64,000 nt of DNA, from contig JASSKH010000028.1 of the NCBI GenBank assembly GCA_031763025.1, positions 10,431,359 to 10,495,358 of the forward strand, read 5' to 3'. The stretch comes from Macrocystis pyrifera (taxonomy: Eukaryota; Sar; Phaeophyceae; Laminariales; Laminariaceae). The notes beneath the pieces are model-generated. The model was not told where the DNA came from. It did not search any database and was given only the letters and a program-made list of their open reading frames with translations. This document shows, in pieces, positions 21,455 to 60,900 of the stretch. Position numbers and translations under genes: made by a program. Numbering within the stretch: the first letter of the stretch is position 1; each line of letters starts with the position of its first letter.

Positions 21455-21732
21455 GCAGGAAAGAGGTCTTAAGGTCTTAGTCCGTAGGGCTACTGGCAAA
21501 AGGTTAACCAATCGCCTACCTAACCTAAGCCTTACAACACTCTCGCCCCCTGGAACGGACCGGTATACGGATCGACGTGCCACCAACACGCGCTTCCAAG
21601 TTTTGGGGATCCAGAAGTATTTTTTTAGATTCTTGACATGAGGAAATTCACTATTCTTTAAAAAGCGATTTCATGATGGACTTGAGATTCGAACTCACGT
21701 CCAACGACCCATGTCTTGCCGACGATGCCTCA
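21455..21732 (-). repeat. Two pieces of a tRNA-derived SINE-like repeat
   Basis: The part near 21,460-21,550 matches the outer half, and 21,655-21,732 matches the T-arm half, of the repeat seen whole at 30,140-30,285. The T-arm half contains GAGATTCGAACTCAC, on the minus strand a B-box-like GTTCGAATC. The halves are in swapped order relative to the intact copy, so this is a rearranged remnant. Confidence 0.6.
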
Positions 21733-22443
21733 TGTTAAGATCAAGGTCGGGACACTTTGTATCCCTGGACAGGTTTACCTATGAAGCCGGTACGAAGGAA
21801 GCGCTCATGTCACGTCCAGGCCATACCGCATCAATTCCCTCTTGGCCAAAAAAAGTGGAGGCCACCTTAGACCAGTACCTGGCGGCAGGCCTCATCCAGC
21901 ACTCGACTTCTTCGTACTCGATCCCGCTGGAGGTCATCCTAAACAAATCTGGAGGCGTTCGGATCACCTTGAACTGCAAGAAACTCAACAAAATCAGCAG
22001 CCTCAGCCAGCTGTCTATTCCTCGCGTGGACCAAGTCCTCGACTCCCTGGGGAAGGGACAGGTGTTTTCCCTCTTTGATTTGGCCTCCTCGTTCCACCAA
22101 ATTATTACCGCGCACAAGGACACTGTTCCCTCACGGCGTTTTGCACTCCCACGGGTCTCCACAAGTGGCTCGTCATGCCCCAAGGCGGCAGTGCTTCGCC
22201 CGGCTAGCTCGTCAAGGTCATTAACGAAGTCATTAAAGGTTTGGCACACGTGGCGGCCTACCTCGATGATGTGATCGTTTTCGACTCTGATCCGATGGCC
22301 CACGTCAAGACGATACGAACCCTCTCCGAACGTCTGCGTAAACACAACCTCAGCTCTCCCCCTCGAAGGCTCGCCTAGGCACCACGGACGCAATTTTTCT
22401 GGGACACTCCATTTCGCCAGCGGGTATACGCCCAAATGCGGAA
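21733..22443 (+). mobile_element. Fossil Ty3/gypsy retrotransposon fragment with reverse transcriptase
   Basis: A truncated LTR start (TGTTAAGATCAAGGTCGGGA) leads directly into a reverse transcriptase segment. Family features are YLAAGLI, SGGVRI, KLNKI, IPRVDQVLDSL and FSLFDLASSFHQI, which are the opening blocks of Ty3/gypsy-type RT. The copy is partial and broken, with few visible breaks. It shares its LTR family with the elements at 22,746-23,254, 35,098-37,955, 38,771-39,728 and 40,280-40,380. Confidence 0.8.
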
Positions 22444-23254: not shown

Positions 23255-23500
23255 GAGGAGGATTACATGATACGGCCGAAATTGACGAGCTGCATCATGT
23301 ATATATGTATGTGCAGATGGACCTCACAGTGCACGTCACAACATTCGTTCCAATACATGAGGCAATTGACCGGTCAAATTTACCCTTGCAATCAGTACAT
23401 TGTACTCCTATATCTGGTATCGGTTCTGACCTCGCGCATTCTGGCTCGCTTTCGCCGCGCTCTTGCCGCGAAGAGAGCGAGTCGGTGTAGATATGACCTT

Positions 23501-23867
23501 GGCGAAGAACGAAGATGATTTTTAGTATTATTCTCCCGGCACAGTAGAAACAGAAATGAGGGACCACGTGGATCTCACGTGCACTCACAGAATCAACTAA
23601 GTAACCCATACTAAACGATATCCCTAATAGTTGTTATTTCATGGTGGACGTGAGATTCGAACTCGCGACCAACTACCCATGTTCTGCCGTCGTCGCCATT
23701 TGTTAAGTCCGTTGGGCCAAAGGTAAAAGGTTAACTAATCGCCTACCCAATCTAAGCCTCATAGCATAGTCATGAAACTGCCATAATGCTGAACAACAAT
23801 ATTCGAACACACATGAACGCACACTACCTGATGCTGAACAACCACGTTCGAACACATTCCCTGGTTT
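23501..23867. repeat. Dispersed repeat copy A, interrupted by a SINE-like insertion
   Basis: The sequence from GGCGAAGAACGAAGATGATT to the CTGAACAACCACGTTCGAAC segment matches 24,824-25,040, apart from a 139-bp insertion at 23,631-23,769. Inside the unit a block of about 50 bp (CTGAACAAC, TTCGAACACA) is itself repeated. Nature of the unit is unknown. Confidence 0.75.
23631..23769 (-). mobile_element. tRNA-derived SINE-like insertion with an empty-site control
   Basis: On the minus strand it carries a tRNA-like head: an A-box-like region near GGCCCAACGG, a B-box GTTCGAATC within a T-arm whose stem pairs, and a GTCCACCA end resembling a tRNA acceptor terminus. It is flanked by the four bases ATAG on both sides. 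The related repeat at 24,824-25,040 lacks exactly this block and has one ATAG at 24,957-24,960. This is direct evidence of insertion. No poly-A tail is obvious. Confidence 0.75.
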
Positions 23868-24823
23868 TACAGCTAAACATCAGTGACGATTCAGGACAAT
23901 AACACAAAACTCATCTTCATAACCTAAATCACCAGGTCCTGTAGCATTTGAGGGGAAACCTGTACCATGCAGGCGAGAACTTCTCACTCCCGTATGAAAC
24001 TATTGCAGATCTCCCACGCACCAGCTTAATGCCCTAAAAGCGAAAAAAAAAACGATAGATAAATAATAGAGCTCGCGAGGACCCCGTTCCCGCGGACGCA
24101 CGCCTCCCTGTGCCCCCTACTTCCGTCACAAATTCTCAGATCGTAGTGGTAACGCGAGATACCAAATATATTTCCCTATAGAGTTAGCCCGGTGCTTACT
24201 ATTCCCGAAACAATATCCGTTTGTGGTCAGAACCAAAAAACACTCCATGTTTCTGTTTAGTTCACTAGCTCTCCTTGTTCCATGAAATACTTTATCTTCC
24301 TCGTCAACCAAGTTTTTCATCACTCATGATGCTCTGTTGTTTCATCACCCACGAAGTTTGGAAAAACAATAATAATAGTGCTGGTAAAATAACCAATCAT
24401 CATGAATAAACTTATATCCTTACCCACAACAATTCATCTTCCGACTCGCGAACAAAATTCCCATCACCCATCAAGTTCGGAGATACAGTATTGACGGTAG
24501 AACAACCCATCATCAAGAATATGCATACCCTCCCATGTTCTGCAACCAATAGACAGCAGTACAAAGACAAATCCCTGCAAAACTCAATGAGATTTGTGTC
24601 CACCACTGCCGCTGCATCTGCGATACACCTCTCAAGGTGCACCTACGTACTCTTAATTCGCTAATCCGTGAAAACAATAAATATCAGTTCCACCGGTCCC
24701 CTTATGGTCATGTCACAGACATACCACAAATATATTCTGATTTGAGCATGAAGATAAATTTCGAAACTCCAGGCAAAAAAAGGCTACATATACCGTCCAG
24801 GACGAGAGTGTTGGTAAGTCCCA
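23868..24823. other. AT-rich intergenic stretch
   Basis: I see no gene, RNA or recognisable element. Two similar short phrases (around CATCACCCA and a GAAAAACAAT/GTTCGGAGATAC context at about 24,340-24,500) suggest an old internal duplication. Open frames are short and of AT-rich composition unlike host exons. Confidence 0.4.
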
Positions 24824-25040
24824 GGCGAAGAACGAAGATGATTCAGGTTTTTAGTATTATTCTCCCGGCAGAGTGAAGACAGAAATCAGTGAACACGTGG
24901 GTCTCACGGGCACTCAAAGAATCAACCAAGTAACCCATAATAAGCCGATATCCCGAATAGCCATGAAACTGCCAAAATGCTGAACAACCACATTCGAACA
25001 CACATGAACGCACACTCCCTGATGCTGAACAATCATATTC
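24824..25040. repeat. Dispersed repeat copy B (empty site)
   Basis: This is the uninterrupted counterpart of 23,501-23,867. The junction CGAATAG/CCATGAAACTG at 24,960/24,961 is where copy A has its SINE-like insertion. Confidence 0.75.
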
Positions 25041-26259
25041 TATCAGCCGGCGCGGCGCGAGACCACGCTTTCCACTCTCGTACTACTCCACTGTGCCACC
25101 CACCCCCTGGGCACTCGCCGAAAAAATGGGCCGAAACGCCCCAGAACCACGCATCCGCAAGACCACACTAAACTATGTGAGACACCATAGACACCAAAAG
25201 CACCACCAGCTACAATAACGATGCTGGTACTTTTCTGCAACGTGTGCCTTCAATGACAATGCAACCGTACAATCGTCCAGCATGTAACAAAACGAGTGTC
25301 ATACGCAATCTGAAGGGGAACATGCGCCGAACAAGTTGCTCGTGAATCCGACAACACTCGGCATTTAGGCGCTGATCCCCCCGCCTGTCGTCTACACAAC
25401 GGCCGGCGCCGAACGTCATACCCACCTGCACGGTGTGGCGCCACCGGCGTGCCCTCCTCCAAAACAAGGTTACTTACGTATGTCTCCCTACCTGTTATCT
25501 CCGCCCCCCCCCCCGTAAACCAAGCCACCACCTACGAAAACACAAGGTGGCAGATCAAAACCCCTGCAGCGGTCGCCGCCAATGCCACGGTCTGCTGGTC
25601 ACAAAGTGACGACCGACGGCACAAACCCTCCACCCCTCCGCCCCCCGTGCTTACACAGAAGACCCTTACAACAGACGCTGCCATCAGGGCCGACATGTTA
25701 CATACCCTGGTCCTCTTCTGTTTCTTCTCTCGGCAACCCCATCACTCCCAGACATCCACAGCTCGGTGACAACGGCTGAAGGGTGGTATGCGCATGACGA
25801 CGGTCCAAAGAAAGACAGCCAGCTCCATATCGGTCTTGATCGGTTTCCCAGGCTGATTCTGACCCTAAGGGGGTCACGGACCGCGGGATATCCTGTCGGG
25901 TTCGCTTGTAGGCCGTCCCGCCGGTGTTGTCGTGGTGCCTCCGCAAGACACGTGAGGCGCGACAAACTCCCATGCTGCTACCCATCCCCACGGCAGTGGG
26001 AATGACTTCTCCCTGGAAGAGGCTATGATCGAGGCCTTGCGTGCGCTACTCCCCGTCAAGTGCCGACTTTGATCGTTTCCGACAATCCGTCACCCCGCAC
26101 GAAAATTCGAAGTTCATCGCCGAGCGACCCAAACTATCGATCTTGCATTGCCGAGTGAAAACTACAGCCGACGCGTTAGTTGGTACACTCCATGCCGGCC
26201 CCACTGTGGACAACAGTTGAGTGAAGATTGCCTGGTGCGGACGTCCACAATGCCGTCCT
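25041..26259. other. Intergenic stretch left of the EsV-1-7 array
   Basis: No gene is supported. Open frames of 60-100 codons exist on both strands but have no recognisable motif, and none is extended by splice-compatible neighbours that I can find. Composition is intermediate between host exons and the AT-rich blocks. Confidence 0.4.
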
Positions 26260-27560
26260 TAACATATTATTTGCAGTGCCCAGTCACCTTGCACTCGACA
26301 ACATACGTCGGTAGCTTGTTCCCAGGGTCACGTAAAAGCAGCTCTTGCTGCGGACGTTCACCGTGCCCTTCTCAGCATGTTGCTTGCAGTACGACGGCAT
26401 CTTGCTGCCCTCGGCATTAAAGCTCGGTATCGTCGTACACGAGTCATGCATGCAGCGTTTACTCCAGACGGTCACCATACCGTCCTCAGCACATTGTCTG
26501 CATTACACCGGCGTGTTGCTGCCCTCAATATTAGCGCTCGGGTTCTTCGTGCCGGAGGCGTGTGAGAAATGCCTACCGTAGATGATATGCATACCGTCCC
26601 CAGCATATTGCTTGCAGTACGCCGGTGTCTTGCTCCCTTCGACATAAAAGCGAGGGTTTTTTGTGCAGGAGTCGTTAGAGCAACGCTTGTCAGCGACGTT
26701 CACCTTACATACTACGGCATGTTGCTTGCAGTACAACGGCGATTTGCAAGCCCTCGAGGTTGGAAATCAGTCTCTTCATGCAGGGGTCGTGAGGGCAATG
26801 CTTGTCGCCGACGTTCACCATGCCATCCAAGGCGTGTTGTCTGCAGCACACCGGCGCATTGTTGCCTTCGACGCTGAGGTTCGACCTCGGTATGCAGGAT
26901 TCATGCATGCAGCGCTTACTGCAGACGTTCACCATGCCGGTCTCAGCATGTTGCGTGCAGTACACAGGCGTCTTGCTGCCCTCGACATTAAAGCTCGGTA
27001 TCTTCATGCAAGAGTCATACGTACAGCGCTTCATGCAGACGTTCACCATATCGTCCCCAGCATGTTGCCTGCAGTACACCGGCGCCTGGTTGCCCTCAAT
27101 ATTACAGCTCGGGTTCCTCGTGCAGGAGTCGTGTGAGCAATGCCTACCGTGGATGATAAGCACGCCGTCCCCAGCATGTTGCTTGCAGTACGCCGGCGTT
27201 TTGCTGCCTTCTACATTAAAGCAAAAGTTTCTCGTGCAGGAGTCGTGCGAGCAACGCCTGTCATGGACGTTCACCATACCACTTACGGCATGCTGCTTGC
27301 AGTACACCGGCGTCTTGCTGCCCTCGACACTAAAGCCCGGTCTCGTCATGCAGGAGTGATGTATGCAGCGCTTACTGCAGGCGTTCACCATACCGTCCTC
27401 AGGACGTTGCCTGCGGTACACCGGCGTCTCGCTGCCCTCAAACGTTAATTTTCGGGCTCCGCAGGAGTCGTGTGAGCAATGCCTACCGTAGATGATAACC
27501 ATGCCGTCCCCAGCATGTTGCTTGCAGTACGCCGGCGTGAAAACAGCATATATCTGGTAA
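26260..27560 (-). pseudogene. Decayed EsV-1-7 cysteine/histidine repeat gene
   Basis: About twelve tandem units of close to 114 bp (38 residues) encode C-X4-C-X16-C-X2-H-X12, the EsV-1-7 motif. Typical residues are CSHDSC, then EGSKTPVYCKQH, then A-D-GMVNV. Seven units from about 27,560 to 26,780 lie in one open frame. The remaining units use other frames and lose some cysteines or histidines toward 26,260, so the array is broken, with about two or three visible breaks, and is treated here as a fossil. EsV-1-7 proteins are a large brown-algal family (the Ectocarpus developmental regulator IMMEDIATE UPRIGHT is one) and one member is encoded by virus EsV-1. I see no phaeovirus genes nearby, so a host origin is more likely. 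No promoter, start region or splice partner was found. Confidence 0.88.
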
Positions 27561-29390
27561 ATTTTTCACAATCGTTACGTACTTCGATTGTGACAAAAAC
27601 ATACCCAGAAAAAACCGGGGTTCTTGGGAAATCCATGATACCGTGAGGCACCGCCAATTTTCTGAACCCCATCCAAGCGTACCGTGCTGACAATGGTTCC
27701 TCATCACTGCGCACGAGTACCGTGCACGAGAGGATTTTTCGGTACGGTACAAACTTTATACGTACACCGCGCCAACTGATGCCTGCCCTAGAAATGTGTT
27801 TTTCCCACCATTGCGCAACGCGAGCTTCATGCGGGCCTTGACCCACCTCACTCCTCAGAGAAGAAGCTCGAATCCATGTTGGGCTTCCCGCTTCGGGTTT
27901 TCACGAGCATGTTATCGTGATTGGTGATTGCGGTTTGGTGATGGTGAATGTGTTTAACGACAATAACCATTGTACTTTAATTCGGCACACCACTTCGGAG
28001 TAGCGGGGGCTTGGTTGAAGGCTTGGCGGTTGTGAATGGATGAGTGTAGCCGTTAACTTTGGCTTTGCGCCCAATTTTTTTGGGTCATGGAGTGCTTCAG
28101 GTTGCTGACCGCAGAGCAGGTGCTGTGCTGGCAGTCCGGTACTGTGTTGGGGTGGCGCTGGAACAAGTAAACATATCGTTGTCCGGTCTGAGTATTAGGC
28201 TGTTAGGGCGTTCGTGGCAAAAGAGCCGCGCGATTTCAAAGCGGTTCATGGTTGCGACCCATCGGTGGTAGTAGTGCCGGCCATAAAACACGTCGAGACA
28301 AACAATCCGCAAGACGAATTTCCAACCTGCTTTTCTCGACCACGGAGAGAGCGAACAGAATACGCCGAGACGGTACGTCTATGGAAACATCAACGAGATC
28401 CTCCCAAAGCCACCACGTTCGTTGTGTGCGCCCCCCCCCCCCCCTCCCCCCCCAGAGAACATCGACTCGGAAATTCGTCCCAAAAGCAGGTGTGTTATCT
28501 TACCACCGGTGTGATACATGAGTAGAACCACCACCGTGCATTGCCATCGTGAACCGCATTGGACCCTGAAGACTATTAGTTTGTATACCAGGCACCGATA
28601 CATTTTCTGTTCCAGTGCGTTGTGTTGGCAAAGTAGGCCCACTGCCTGATCTTTCACACCTCGAGGACAAGCGACTTCGAATTCTCTCCGCAATGTGCTC
28701 TGCCCCCTGGGGGAAGCAGCGTTGGACACGGTGGTGGCGTGGGCGCCGGTATACACGGGGGTAGAGGCTGTTTTTCAAGTAGCACAATTCGGTGTTCTCT
28801 ACACCATATATACCCAATGCCAGTGTGTTTTCATGTTTTCTCACACCCACGCTAAAGGCAACACAATTTTCTCCAATTATATTCCCACGGTTGATTCCGT
28901 AGATAGGTGTGGCTCTGGAGATGCTCATACCGCTGCTATGGTTTCGGGGGAAATACTACTACGAGCGAAATGGGAGTATCGCTACGAGCGCAGCGAGATA
29001 ATAACTTCCAGGACAGACAAAAATAGGAGCGCCTTCGAAATGGCTGAAGCGGTCGACCGACCGACCGACCGACCGGGATGCAGTTTATGACATCACAAGT
29101 TCCCTGCTGCGCAAATTTCTAGCACCTAGCGACAGCGCGGCACCTATCTGTCGTAGTATGACGTATCAGGCTGAATAGCTTATCCCACGTTGTCAACACG
29201 CTGCGGTCGACGCTGATCAGCACTCAGTTCGTCGTGTTGACGAACGACGTTCGATCTCGGGATGGAATCAACCGATGGCCAACCCACTTTTGGCGTCGGA
29301 CAAAGCCAGAGGATTAAGAACATACTTGTATTTAGATATTTTGACAATTGGCATTAAAAAATATGCTGCAAAAAAGTAAGTGTTCGTGTT
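27561..29390. other. Intergenic stretch with one dispersed repeat
   Basis: No supported gene. Positions 28,310-28,440 (TTTTCTCGACCACGGAGAG to a GTGTGCG C-run) match 50,559-50,690 in a fimbrin intron. A short GACC tetranucleotide tract lies at 29,056-29,077. The remaining open frames lack motifs. Confidence 0.45.
28310..28440. repeat. Dispersed repeat paired with 50,559-50,690
   Basis: The shared path is AATTTCC, TTTTCTCGAC, a GGAGA block, CGCCGAG, GTACGTCTATGGAAA (GTGCGTCTACGGAAA in the partner), and finally GTGTGC followed by a C run. Both copies end in the C homopolymer, as do the X and Y repeats. Confidence 0.65.
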
Positions 29391-30110
29391 AAGTTTCGAG
29401 CGTGCTGGAGTCGTCGGCCACCAGAGTTTGGCCCGCGACCACCTCGCTTACTGCGGTTGAGCGACGGACCGCCAGCAGCGCGCGTACGATATTGCTCGCG
29501 AACACCACGCCCTCACTGTTGCTCGCGTGAACCGCCGCAACTCCGCCCTTTCCGACGCACTACGTCCTGTCCCCAAATTCACCGTTGGCGGCTGGGCGTG
29601 GGTGTACAATACGGTGGTTACCATCCGCCAGGGCGCGAAACCTGACACGGGCGCCAAGGTTCTCAAGGCCAAACTTTCACTCAACTGAACGGGCCCCTAC
29701 AAAGTCCTCGCAGTTAGCTCCTGCTCCTCGCCGGACACTCCGGGTGGATCTCCTCTCGGGGCAAAGCTCCTATATTGCATCTCCCTTCCAATATCCCCGG
29801 CGCTGATGCCCGCCGGCGCGTCTTAGTTCAACGCTTCAAGCCCTGTGCCATTCCCCATGACCGTGGCGACATGCCGAAGTATTACCCAGCGGGGTTGACA
29901 CAATACGTGCTCAACAACTTCTCCAAGAGATCCCCCCCGTACCACGTCACCCAGGACGACGTTGGGCGTCACCGGCAGAGGGCCGAAGTAGTCTACGCTG
30001 ACGGCAATGCCGGGTCCTTTTGGCAGTGGCGACATGATGGTGGGCCACCGGACCGTCTGCCCCTCCGTCGCCAGAGCCTCGGATACTGCCGCCAGTGCCT
30101 CCGAGGACAT
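29391..30110 (+). mobile_element. Fossil Ty3/gypsy integrase-end fragment, rearranged
   Basis: This parallels about 36,918-37,480 of the LTR element to the right (shared stretches include GCGCGCGTACGAT and CGAACACCACGCCCTCAC). A short piece corresponding to the integrase region (PKGPGIAVSVDYFGPLPVTP) follows in the opposite orientation. It is an old, broken and rearranged copy with several breaks. No LTR of its own is visible. Confidence 0.7.
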
Positions 30111-57900: not shown

Positions 57901-60900
57901 GAAATGGCTTGCGCTGATGTGTTGATATCGTCGTCAACTGCATCACAAACACCACAAAACGCGAACAAAAAAATCACAAAGCACCACAAAACGAAAAAAA
58001 ACAAAACCGCGAAACTTCACACGACCACAAATATCGCGAGCATCCCAACCATCCCAACCATCCTAAATACCCCCACACATCTCTAATGTCCCACACATCG
58101 CACTTATCCCACCCATCCAAAAATTTCCCACAACTCCCCAACATAACAAACACGTTCTAAAAACATCCAACATCTACGCTACATACCAAACACACCACAC
58201 ACCACATAAACACTACACTTCGATTTGTATGCAAGCATCACAAACATCACAACCATCACGGCCATCACACACACCACAATCATCACAAACAGCATCAGCC
58301 TGCACCCGCCCCCCCCCTCCCGCCCTCGACGGGGGGATACTTGCAACTCCCACCTCCCACGCGACTTGCTCAACACCTCACGGCGCTTCGCGATTGGTGC
58401 AAGCACTGTCTGCCTGGTCGGTGAAAACCCGACGTGCTCGGTCCCGGCATTGTATGTAGCGATGCGAGGGTCTATGGTCGTACGATTACGGCCATGCATG
58501 ACATGAGAGTACACTCCCCCCCCCTCCCCTGGCCTGGCTCGGCCCCGTCTAATAGGCTAGGCTAGGCTAGGCTAGGCTGGGCTAGGCGGCGTGTATACCT
58601 TGGCGTTAACGTTGGTGACGACGCATCCAATTGATCGCGCAGCGTTGAGGGCGAGGTTCATGTTTTCAATCTTTTGGAAGATCGACAGCTTCGGTCTCTT
58701 GTCCGAAACGATGTTCATGGCCCTGCGTGTCACACAATCACAAGCAAAGACGAACCCAGACAAAGAGGAAGGAGACGGGGGCAGGGGGGGGGGGGCGTAC
58801 TCATTTGTTGCTTACCTTAGTCATTTGACCATTGACCGCGCATCCCTTTCGAGACGGAGCAGCACGGGGGCAGGGTGGGGGGGGGGGGGGGGTACTCGAT
58901 ATCACGCATGGCCGTAGTCGTTTGACCATAGACATTCGCTTCCCTACAACGCCGGGACGGAGCACGTCGGGTTTTCACCGGCCAGGCAGACATTGCTTGC
59001 ACCAAGCGCGGAAGCGCCGTGAGGTGTTCGGCGAGTCGCATGAAGGGTGAGCTGCATCCTCTACTAAGAGCCGCTTGTGAGGCGGACTTGCGCAAGGGTG
59101 ACAGCGCCAATGAGTCGATTTACTTTCCGGTGTGGCCACTTCCAGAGACAGCAATGGGGGTACTACATAACTGCCTCGTGGATGCCTTACCACAAACCTA
59201 CCTGGTACCTGATACGATCATTCCTACGAGAAAACTATCCACGCGGTCACGCAGAGGAAAGGCTCCTCCCGACAAAACGGACATGACCATGTTTGCTTTG
59301 GTTCTACAGCCGAAAACGACATTCGAAAATTACACAATGAGGAAGAAAGAGCCAGACGCCATTCAGATACCTGGTACGATACGTACAAGCACAGAGCCCT
59401 ACAACAATAGCAGCAACCGCATCAGCAAAAGCAACAAACAACAACAGCAACCGCAACGACCACAGCAAAATCGACAGCAACCAAACCAACAACGAGAACG
59501 ACACTATCATCACCACCAGAGCCTAAACCCGGTCCCACGATACGCCACCTCCTTGCTCCCCCGCGAACAATCCACGCCCAGAGCACTACATCACTAGGAC
59601 ACCAAAAAGCCCAAAACCACCAAACCAGACCAAAACCACCAATGCACTACCAGGTATACACCAAACACACCAGCACACGACCAAACCATCAAACCACTAA
59701 GGCGTGCGGCACCTATCAGTCCATACCTCGCGTCGATGGTGTCGAACTCGGCGAGGTTGATTAGCTTGCACAAGATGAGGCCGTCGGAGGTTTCCGTGAA
59801 CAGCGCCTCCGAAAGCGGGTCCATGGGCAAGCGCGCCCCCACCACCTGAAAAAAAAAACACACACACACATACATACACAAAAAACACAAAAAAAGCGGG
59901 ACAAAACACACAAAAAACACACAAAGAAAACACGTGTAAGAAAACACACACAAAAATCGACCCCCGTTACTTGGAAAGTGCATTCATTTTGTGAGGGACG
60001 ACACTAGTTGGAACTAAATGTAGTACCTGGTATATACCAGGTACGGAAATTTTTTTTCCACACGTGAAAACTCAACTTGCGACGGCGGTTTCGACGTCAG
60101 GCTTCTTTTCCAACACAAATCAACAAAAATTCGAGCACGGGAATACTGGTTTCAACGTGTATGGTGGCATGCATTGGATGTTCTCCCTTGTACAATATGT
60201 GTCCTGTTGATACCCTGGATCGTGACGTGGGGAGGTTTTGCTGGGTTTTTTCTTGCGGGCAAATTCGGAAAAGTTATAAACCCTCAAGTCAGTGACGGTT
60301 GCTTACCACTTGTCCGAGAAAATGATTTGACACTCACCGTGTACGAGACGAATAGAACTAACCCTAGCCCTAACCCTAAGCCAATCAGAGCAGCCCTAAC
60401 CCCAACCCTGAGCCAATCAGATCAACCCTAATCCAAACCCCAAGTCGATCAGAGCAACCTTAACCCCACCCCTAAGCCAATAAGATCAACCCTAACTTTA
60501 ACCGCAAGCCAAGCAGAGCATCCCTAACCCTGACCCTGAGCCAATCAGATCAACCCTAACTCTAGCCGTAAGCCAATCAGAGCAACCCTTAACCCTGACC
60601 CTGAGCCAATCAGACCAATCCAATATCGAATTAAGTGGTAAGCTCCACCGCAGTCAGTTCACTTCACGTCGACGGCTGTTGTTGTGCTTCTTCTTTCGTC
60701 ATCATTTTATAATACGAACATCACATAAATACAGTGGGTGCATGCGCGTGTCGGAGAAGGCGTTGAATTCAGCGACAGCAAAATCCACATCACACCCGGG
60801 TGGATCAAAGGGTGACCAAGACAACAACACACTCGCACAAGGTACATACACATGCGCGTACTCGTGTCATATTACGGGGGACCCTAGTAAATAGGACCTA

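Follow-up and report, generated by a model that had tools for sequence, protein, structure and literature searches.

Reviews describe the EsV-1-7 family (PF19114) as expanded in the brown algae, with the developmental gene IMM among its members (PMC7457493; PMC12993054). In Ectocarpus 90 members have been reported, and these have been hypothesized to be zinc-finger transcription factors (PMC12629598). The locus considered here lies in a stretch of 64,000 nucleotides of Macrocystis pyrifera DNA, referred to below as the window. It shares with Ectocarpus IMM and its approximately 90 relatives a tandem series of C-X4-C-X16-C-X2-H units and a match to PF19114, but it lacks the 5′ end, its reading frame is broken and roughly half of its units no longer carry every ligand. 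We are confident that it is a 5′-truncated, frame-broken pseudogene of this brown-algal family. The features on which the description depends are as follows, in window coordinates.

26708–27565, minus strand: open frame of 286 amino acids holding partial unit 0, units 1–6 and the beginning of unit 7
27538–27539, no strand: 5′ break, where repeat-unit homology stops at unit position 19
27538–27482, minus strand: partial unit 0, inside the 286-aa frame
26738–26797, minus strand: first part of unit 7; the frame changes within the unit
26341–26682, minus strand: units 8, 9 and 10, which as a block share about 83% identity with units 3-4-5
26230–26340, minus strand: unit 11, degenerate, with an in-frame stop and an apparent frameshift
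25814–26195, minus strand: decayed C-terminal tail with one stop and one frame change; paralogues L011 and L046 have homologous tails
25381–25796, minus strand: 3′ flank common with the sister locus on contig C125, collinear, in pieces of 70–75% identity

About 12 tandem units of approximately 114 bp run along the minus strand from 27538 to about 26230. The earlier note, made from the bare sequence, had described about twelve units near 114 bp on this strand, and 12 copies of a 78-nt core are indeed found between 26210 and 27538, spaced at 113, 114, 115 or 111 bp. In contrast to the interval 26260–27560 given there, the array starts mid-unit at 27538 and the remains of the gene reach beyond 26260 to about 25814. 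Membership of the EsV-1-7 family was borne out by profile search: the EsV-1-7 cysteine-rich motif PF19114 matches the 286-aa frame (27565–26708) with an E value of 5.3e-58 and 193 bits against a cut-off of 25, and two later fragments of the array also match (E values of 3.2e-9 and 2.4e-17). Against a profile of the unit derived from 350 distinct paralogue units, units 2–6, 8 and 10 scored 45 to 76 bits on the minus strand and the damaged units lower; when the window was shuffled 20 times under a first-order Markov model, the top domain score reached 10.9 bits. No PDB relative was found at E ≤ 0.1. A Pfam match to the Spt5 CTD (29.4 bits) was judged to be a by-product of the repeats.

The assertion that each unit reads C-X4-C-X16-C-X2-H-X12 was too strong, since a strict search finds all four ligands intact in only six of the approximately 12 units (2, 3, 4, 5, 6 and 10), although the motif itself is present. 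Units 2–6, within the 286-aa frame, keep every C/C/C/H ligand. The His is gone from units 1, 8 and 9; unit 1 lacks the third Cys as well, and unit 9 lacks both of its first Cys residues and has an in-frame stop in addition. Nor does the exact 38-residue register hold: unit 1 has 37 residues, and there is a frameshift in unit 7 and apparently another in unit 11. The shift in unit 7 is evident from the unit profile, which matches frame 0 at 26797–26738 and frame 1 at 26748–26683.

What a working gene would possess, a continuous frame with a start codon just before the first unit and leading to the C-terminal tail, is absent here. The array begins mid-unit, at unit position 19 (27538), and no upstream half-unit scoring above chance was found on either strand within the window, the best stray match reaching 7.8 bits. 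The frame changes in unit 7, stops occur in units 9 and 11, and unit 11 is apparently frameshifted as well. The 5′ half is open: besides the 5′ truncation and a single residue missing from unit 1, the frame lesions found all fall in the 3′ half. Decay at one end, as had been read from the sequence, is supported. Beyond the array, positions 26195–25857 match the tail of the intact paralogue L011 (E value of 5e-11); for the tail of L046 the match (E value of 6.5e-9) is divided between two frames and extends as far as 25814. The C-terminal tail is therefore present but broken.

The kelp genome contains many relatives with which this copy can be compared. In a PF19114 search 150 of 1585 candidates were scored, and all 150 lay above the cut-off. 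These, together with 80 further listed matches and with those judged to represent the same locus left out, give at least 89 EsV-1-7 loci, counting that of the window, spread over 21 contigs; the number is a lower bound because the broken copy on C125 is absent among the matches listed. A neighbour within 250 kb accompanies 67 of the 89 loci. The window locus has none, and its contig carries no other locus among the matches listed. Many members are long open frames; the longest, on C204, has 1700 amino acids. We note there, at about 3889741–3894841 of G000:C204 (L012, L015 and L022), that the 1700-aa open frame is rich in EsV-1-7 units. By eye, at least 17 of 33 non-window entries, several of them cut or overlapping views, have a Met within a few residues upstream of the first unit, and that unit is often imperfect.

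The nearest paralogues found are about 70% identical to the window copy in DNA (40 of 143 candidates scored). The intact paralogues L046 (C218), L027 (C194) and L011 (C204) have a unit array like that of the window but, unlike it, lie in long open frames, and the window tail resembles the tails of L046 and L011. The intact relatives probably work as arrays of small predicted metal-binding modules followed by a C-terminal regulatory tail, as the ligand pattern and the transcription-factor hypothesis in the literature would suggest.

A sister of the window copy, L066 (4167–5016; C125:3976166–3977015), is also a broken array and has the tail and the 3′ flank in common with it. Five candidate places were found for the 3′ flank and all five were scored; the only collinear partner is on C125, with flank pieces 70–75% identical. 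The best array and array-to-tail alignments between the two are about 67% identical, in one case over 677 bp. The array of L066 is split into more separate frames than that of the window copy, and the stops in the two tails are at different places; over 107 codons the tails give a dS of 0.51 and a dN of 0.34, a ratio of 0.67. The C125 tail also matches those of L046, L027 and L011. The description of the window copy as recently dead finds partial support: its 5′ half remains open for 286 codons, but identity to the nearest paralogues found is about 70% and to the sister about 67%.

The same open half, with its internal Met, counts against a pseudogene. A still-working short member could be expressed from the 286-aa frame, or from the part after an internal Met, perhaps with an undetected 5′ exon, and the 286 open codons with five fully ligated units in succession speak for such a gene. 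In principle a 5′ exon could have escaped detection. We nevertheless consider a working short gene unlikely: the window holds no upstream half-unit above chance, the frame ends in the shifted unit, and the tail is both broken and out of frame. Retrocopying was considered and rejected; no poly-A-like run follows the tail in the three-frame translation of 26300–25300, and C125 shares flank beyond the tail. Intron loss is uninformative in this respect because the relatives examined are themselves long open frames.

It seems very improbable that a transposon carried the array and broke it, as could happen after capture within a mobile element. The surroundings are repeat-rich, and an EsV-1-7 domain fused to a TcMar transposase is known in Ectocarpus (PMC12477816). 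Against this, the 3′ flank, with its five scored places, is not high-copy, the tail and the arrangement of units match what ordinary members of the family show, and no element was found at the edges (best 40 candidates scored per search). A dispersed repeat at about 28313–28519, 0.8 kb upstream of the array, has copies of 70–83% identity (best 40 of 371 candidates), and a high-copy element at 29394–30061, 1.9 kb upstream, recurs at 39 other places with 88–90% identity (best 40 of 3157); these are the nearest such repeats found on that side, and neither touches the array. The suggestion of disruption by a transposon is not supported: flank searches of the best 40 candidates each placed no element inside the array or at the break at 27538, though an old or rare element at that break is conceivable. 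A phaeovirus-like insertion, in place of a host gene copy, is scarcely credible. The motif does take its name from a gene of the virus EsV-1 (PMC7457493), but the nearest relatives found are paralogues in the same genome with the same tail; viral contigs were scanned with 227 aa of the window frame and with an 11-row profile, and neither scan gave a confirmed relative.

The array retains some record of how it was built. Units 3-4-5 and 8-9-10 form a block pair of 83% identity, and a 78-nt piece comprising unit 0 and the start of unit 1 has 96% identity with the corresponding part of units 3 and 4, so that exchange or copying there was recent. The block pair has a dN/dS of 0.68, a value reached by 0.4% of random triples. 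Within open arrays, 292 unit pairs of 78–90% identity give a pooled dN/dS of 0.31, a ratio lowered by the requirement for intact motifs without stops. Per-unit values across the block pair are 0.30, 2.51 and 0.54, so that unit 9 accounts for most of the excess. Among single open arrays the values run from 0.17 to 0.79, the highest being L046 (0.79, three pairs), a near relative of the window copy by its tail. Given the dependence on unit 9, this range and the bias of the comparison set, the ratio fits a late relaxation of selection on the array but does not prove it.

We envisage a gene that would have grown by duplication of multi-unit blocks in 114-bp register and been copied at the DNA level with its 3′ flank; the 5′ end would then have been lost and the copy left to decay, making no product. 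The window copy is best seen as a dead and quite ordinary relative of many intact copies, in a family that is already known. To that family, whose expansion in brown algae had been established before, it contributes one dead gene, and it displays block duplication in 114-bp register and, on the history just outlined, copying to another contig and then loss.

The tails of living members may matter more than the dead copy. We examined 26 distinct tails of intact kelp members, taken from open arrays of at least three units (loci L002–L046). The pattern [VILMF]KxE, which we take to be like the SUMO-acceptor consensus, occurs within the last 60 residues of 17 of these, against 0.7 expected from composition shuffles; this is no clean test, because the choice of pattern followed inspection of the tails, which are moreover related to one another (L017, L018, L024 and L025, for example, are near-identical). 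It does sit in visibly different tail types. The other nine tails lack it in the last 60 residues, L020 among them having a match further in. The window tail reads IKTD and the C125 tail IKTE. No mention of SUMO was found in PMC12993054, PMC12477816, PMC12629598 or one further paper that names EsV-1-7. Our tentative suggestion, which we hold to be somewhat doubtful, is that kelp EsV-1-7 proteins have a conserved C-terminal SUMO-acceptor motif across several tail types and may be SUMO-regulated, probably nuclear, zinc-finger-like regulators evolving by birth and death, with the C209/C125 pair as casualties. If this is true the family would be a large set of SUMO-regulated regulators, and the motif offers a cheap, testable hint on the regulation of its living members.

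The surroundings of the array had been described as a block with no other gene. This stands only for seven nearby open frames of at least 151 amino acids, which have no Pfam match at E ≤ 0.01, transposase domains included. A frame at 21642–22271 resembles reverse transcriptase by eye, with no Pfam match at the same threshold. Direct repeats at 23485–23854 and 24808–25045, 83–89% identical and 1.2–1.3 kb apart, are possibly the ends of a small LTR element, and the high-copy element at 29394–30061 has an arm in the opposite orientation. Further along the window, at 60360–60618, lies an array of 32/64-bp units rich in AACCCT.
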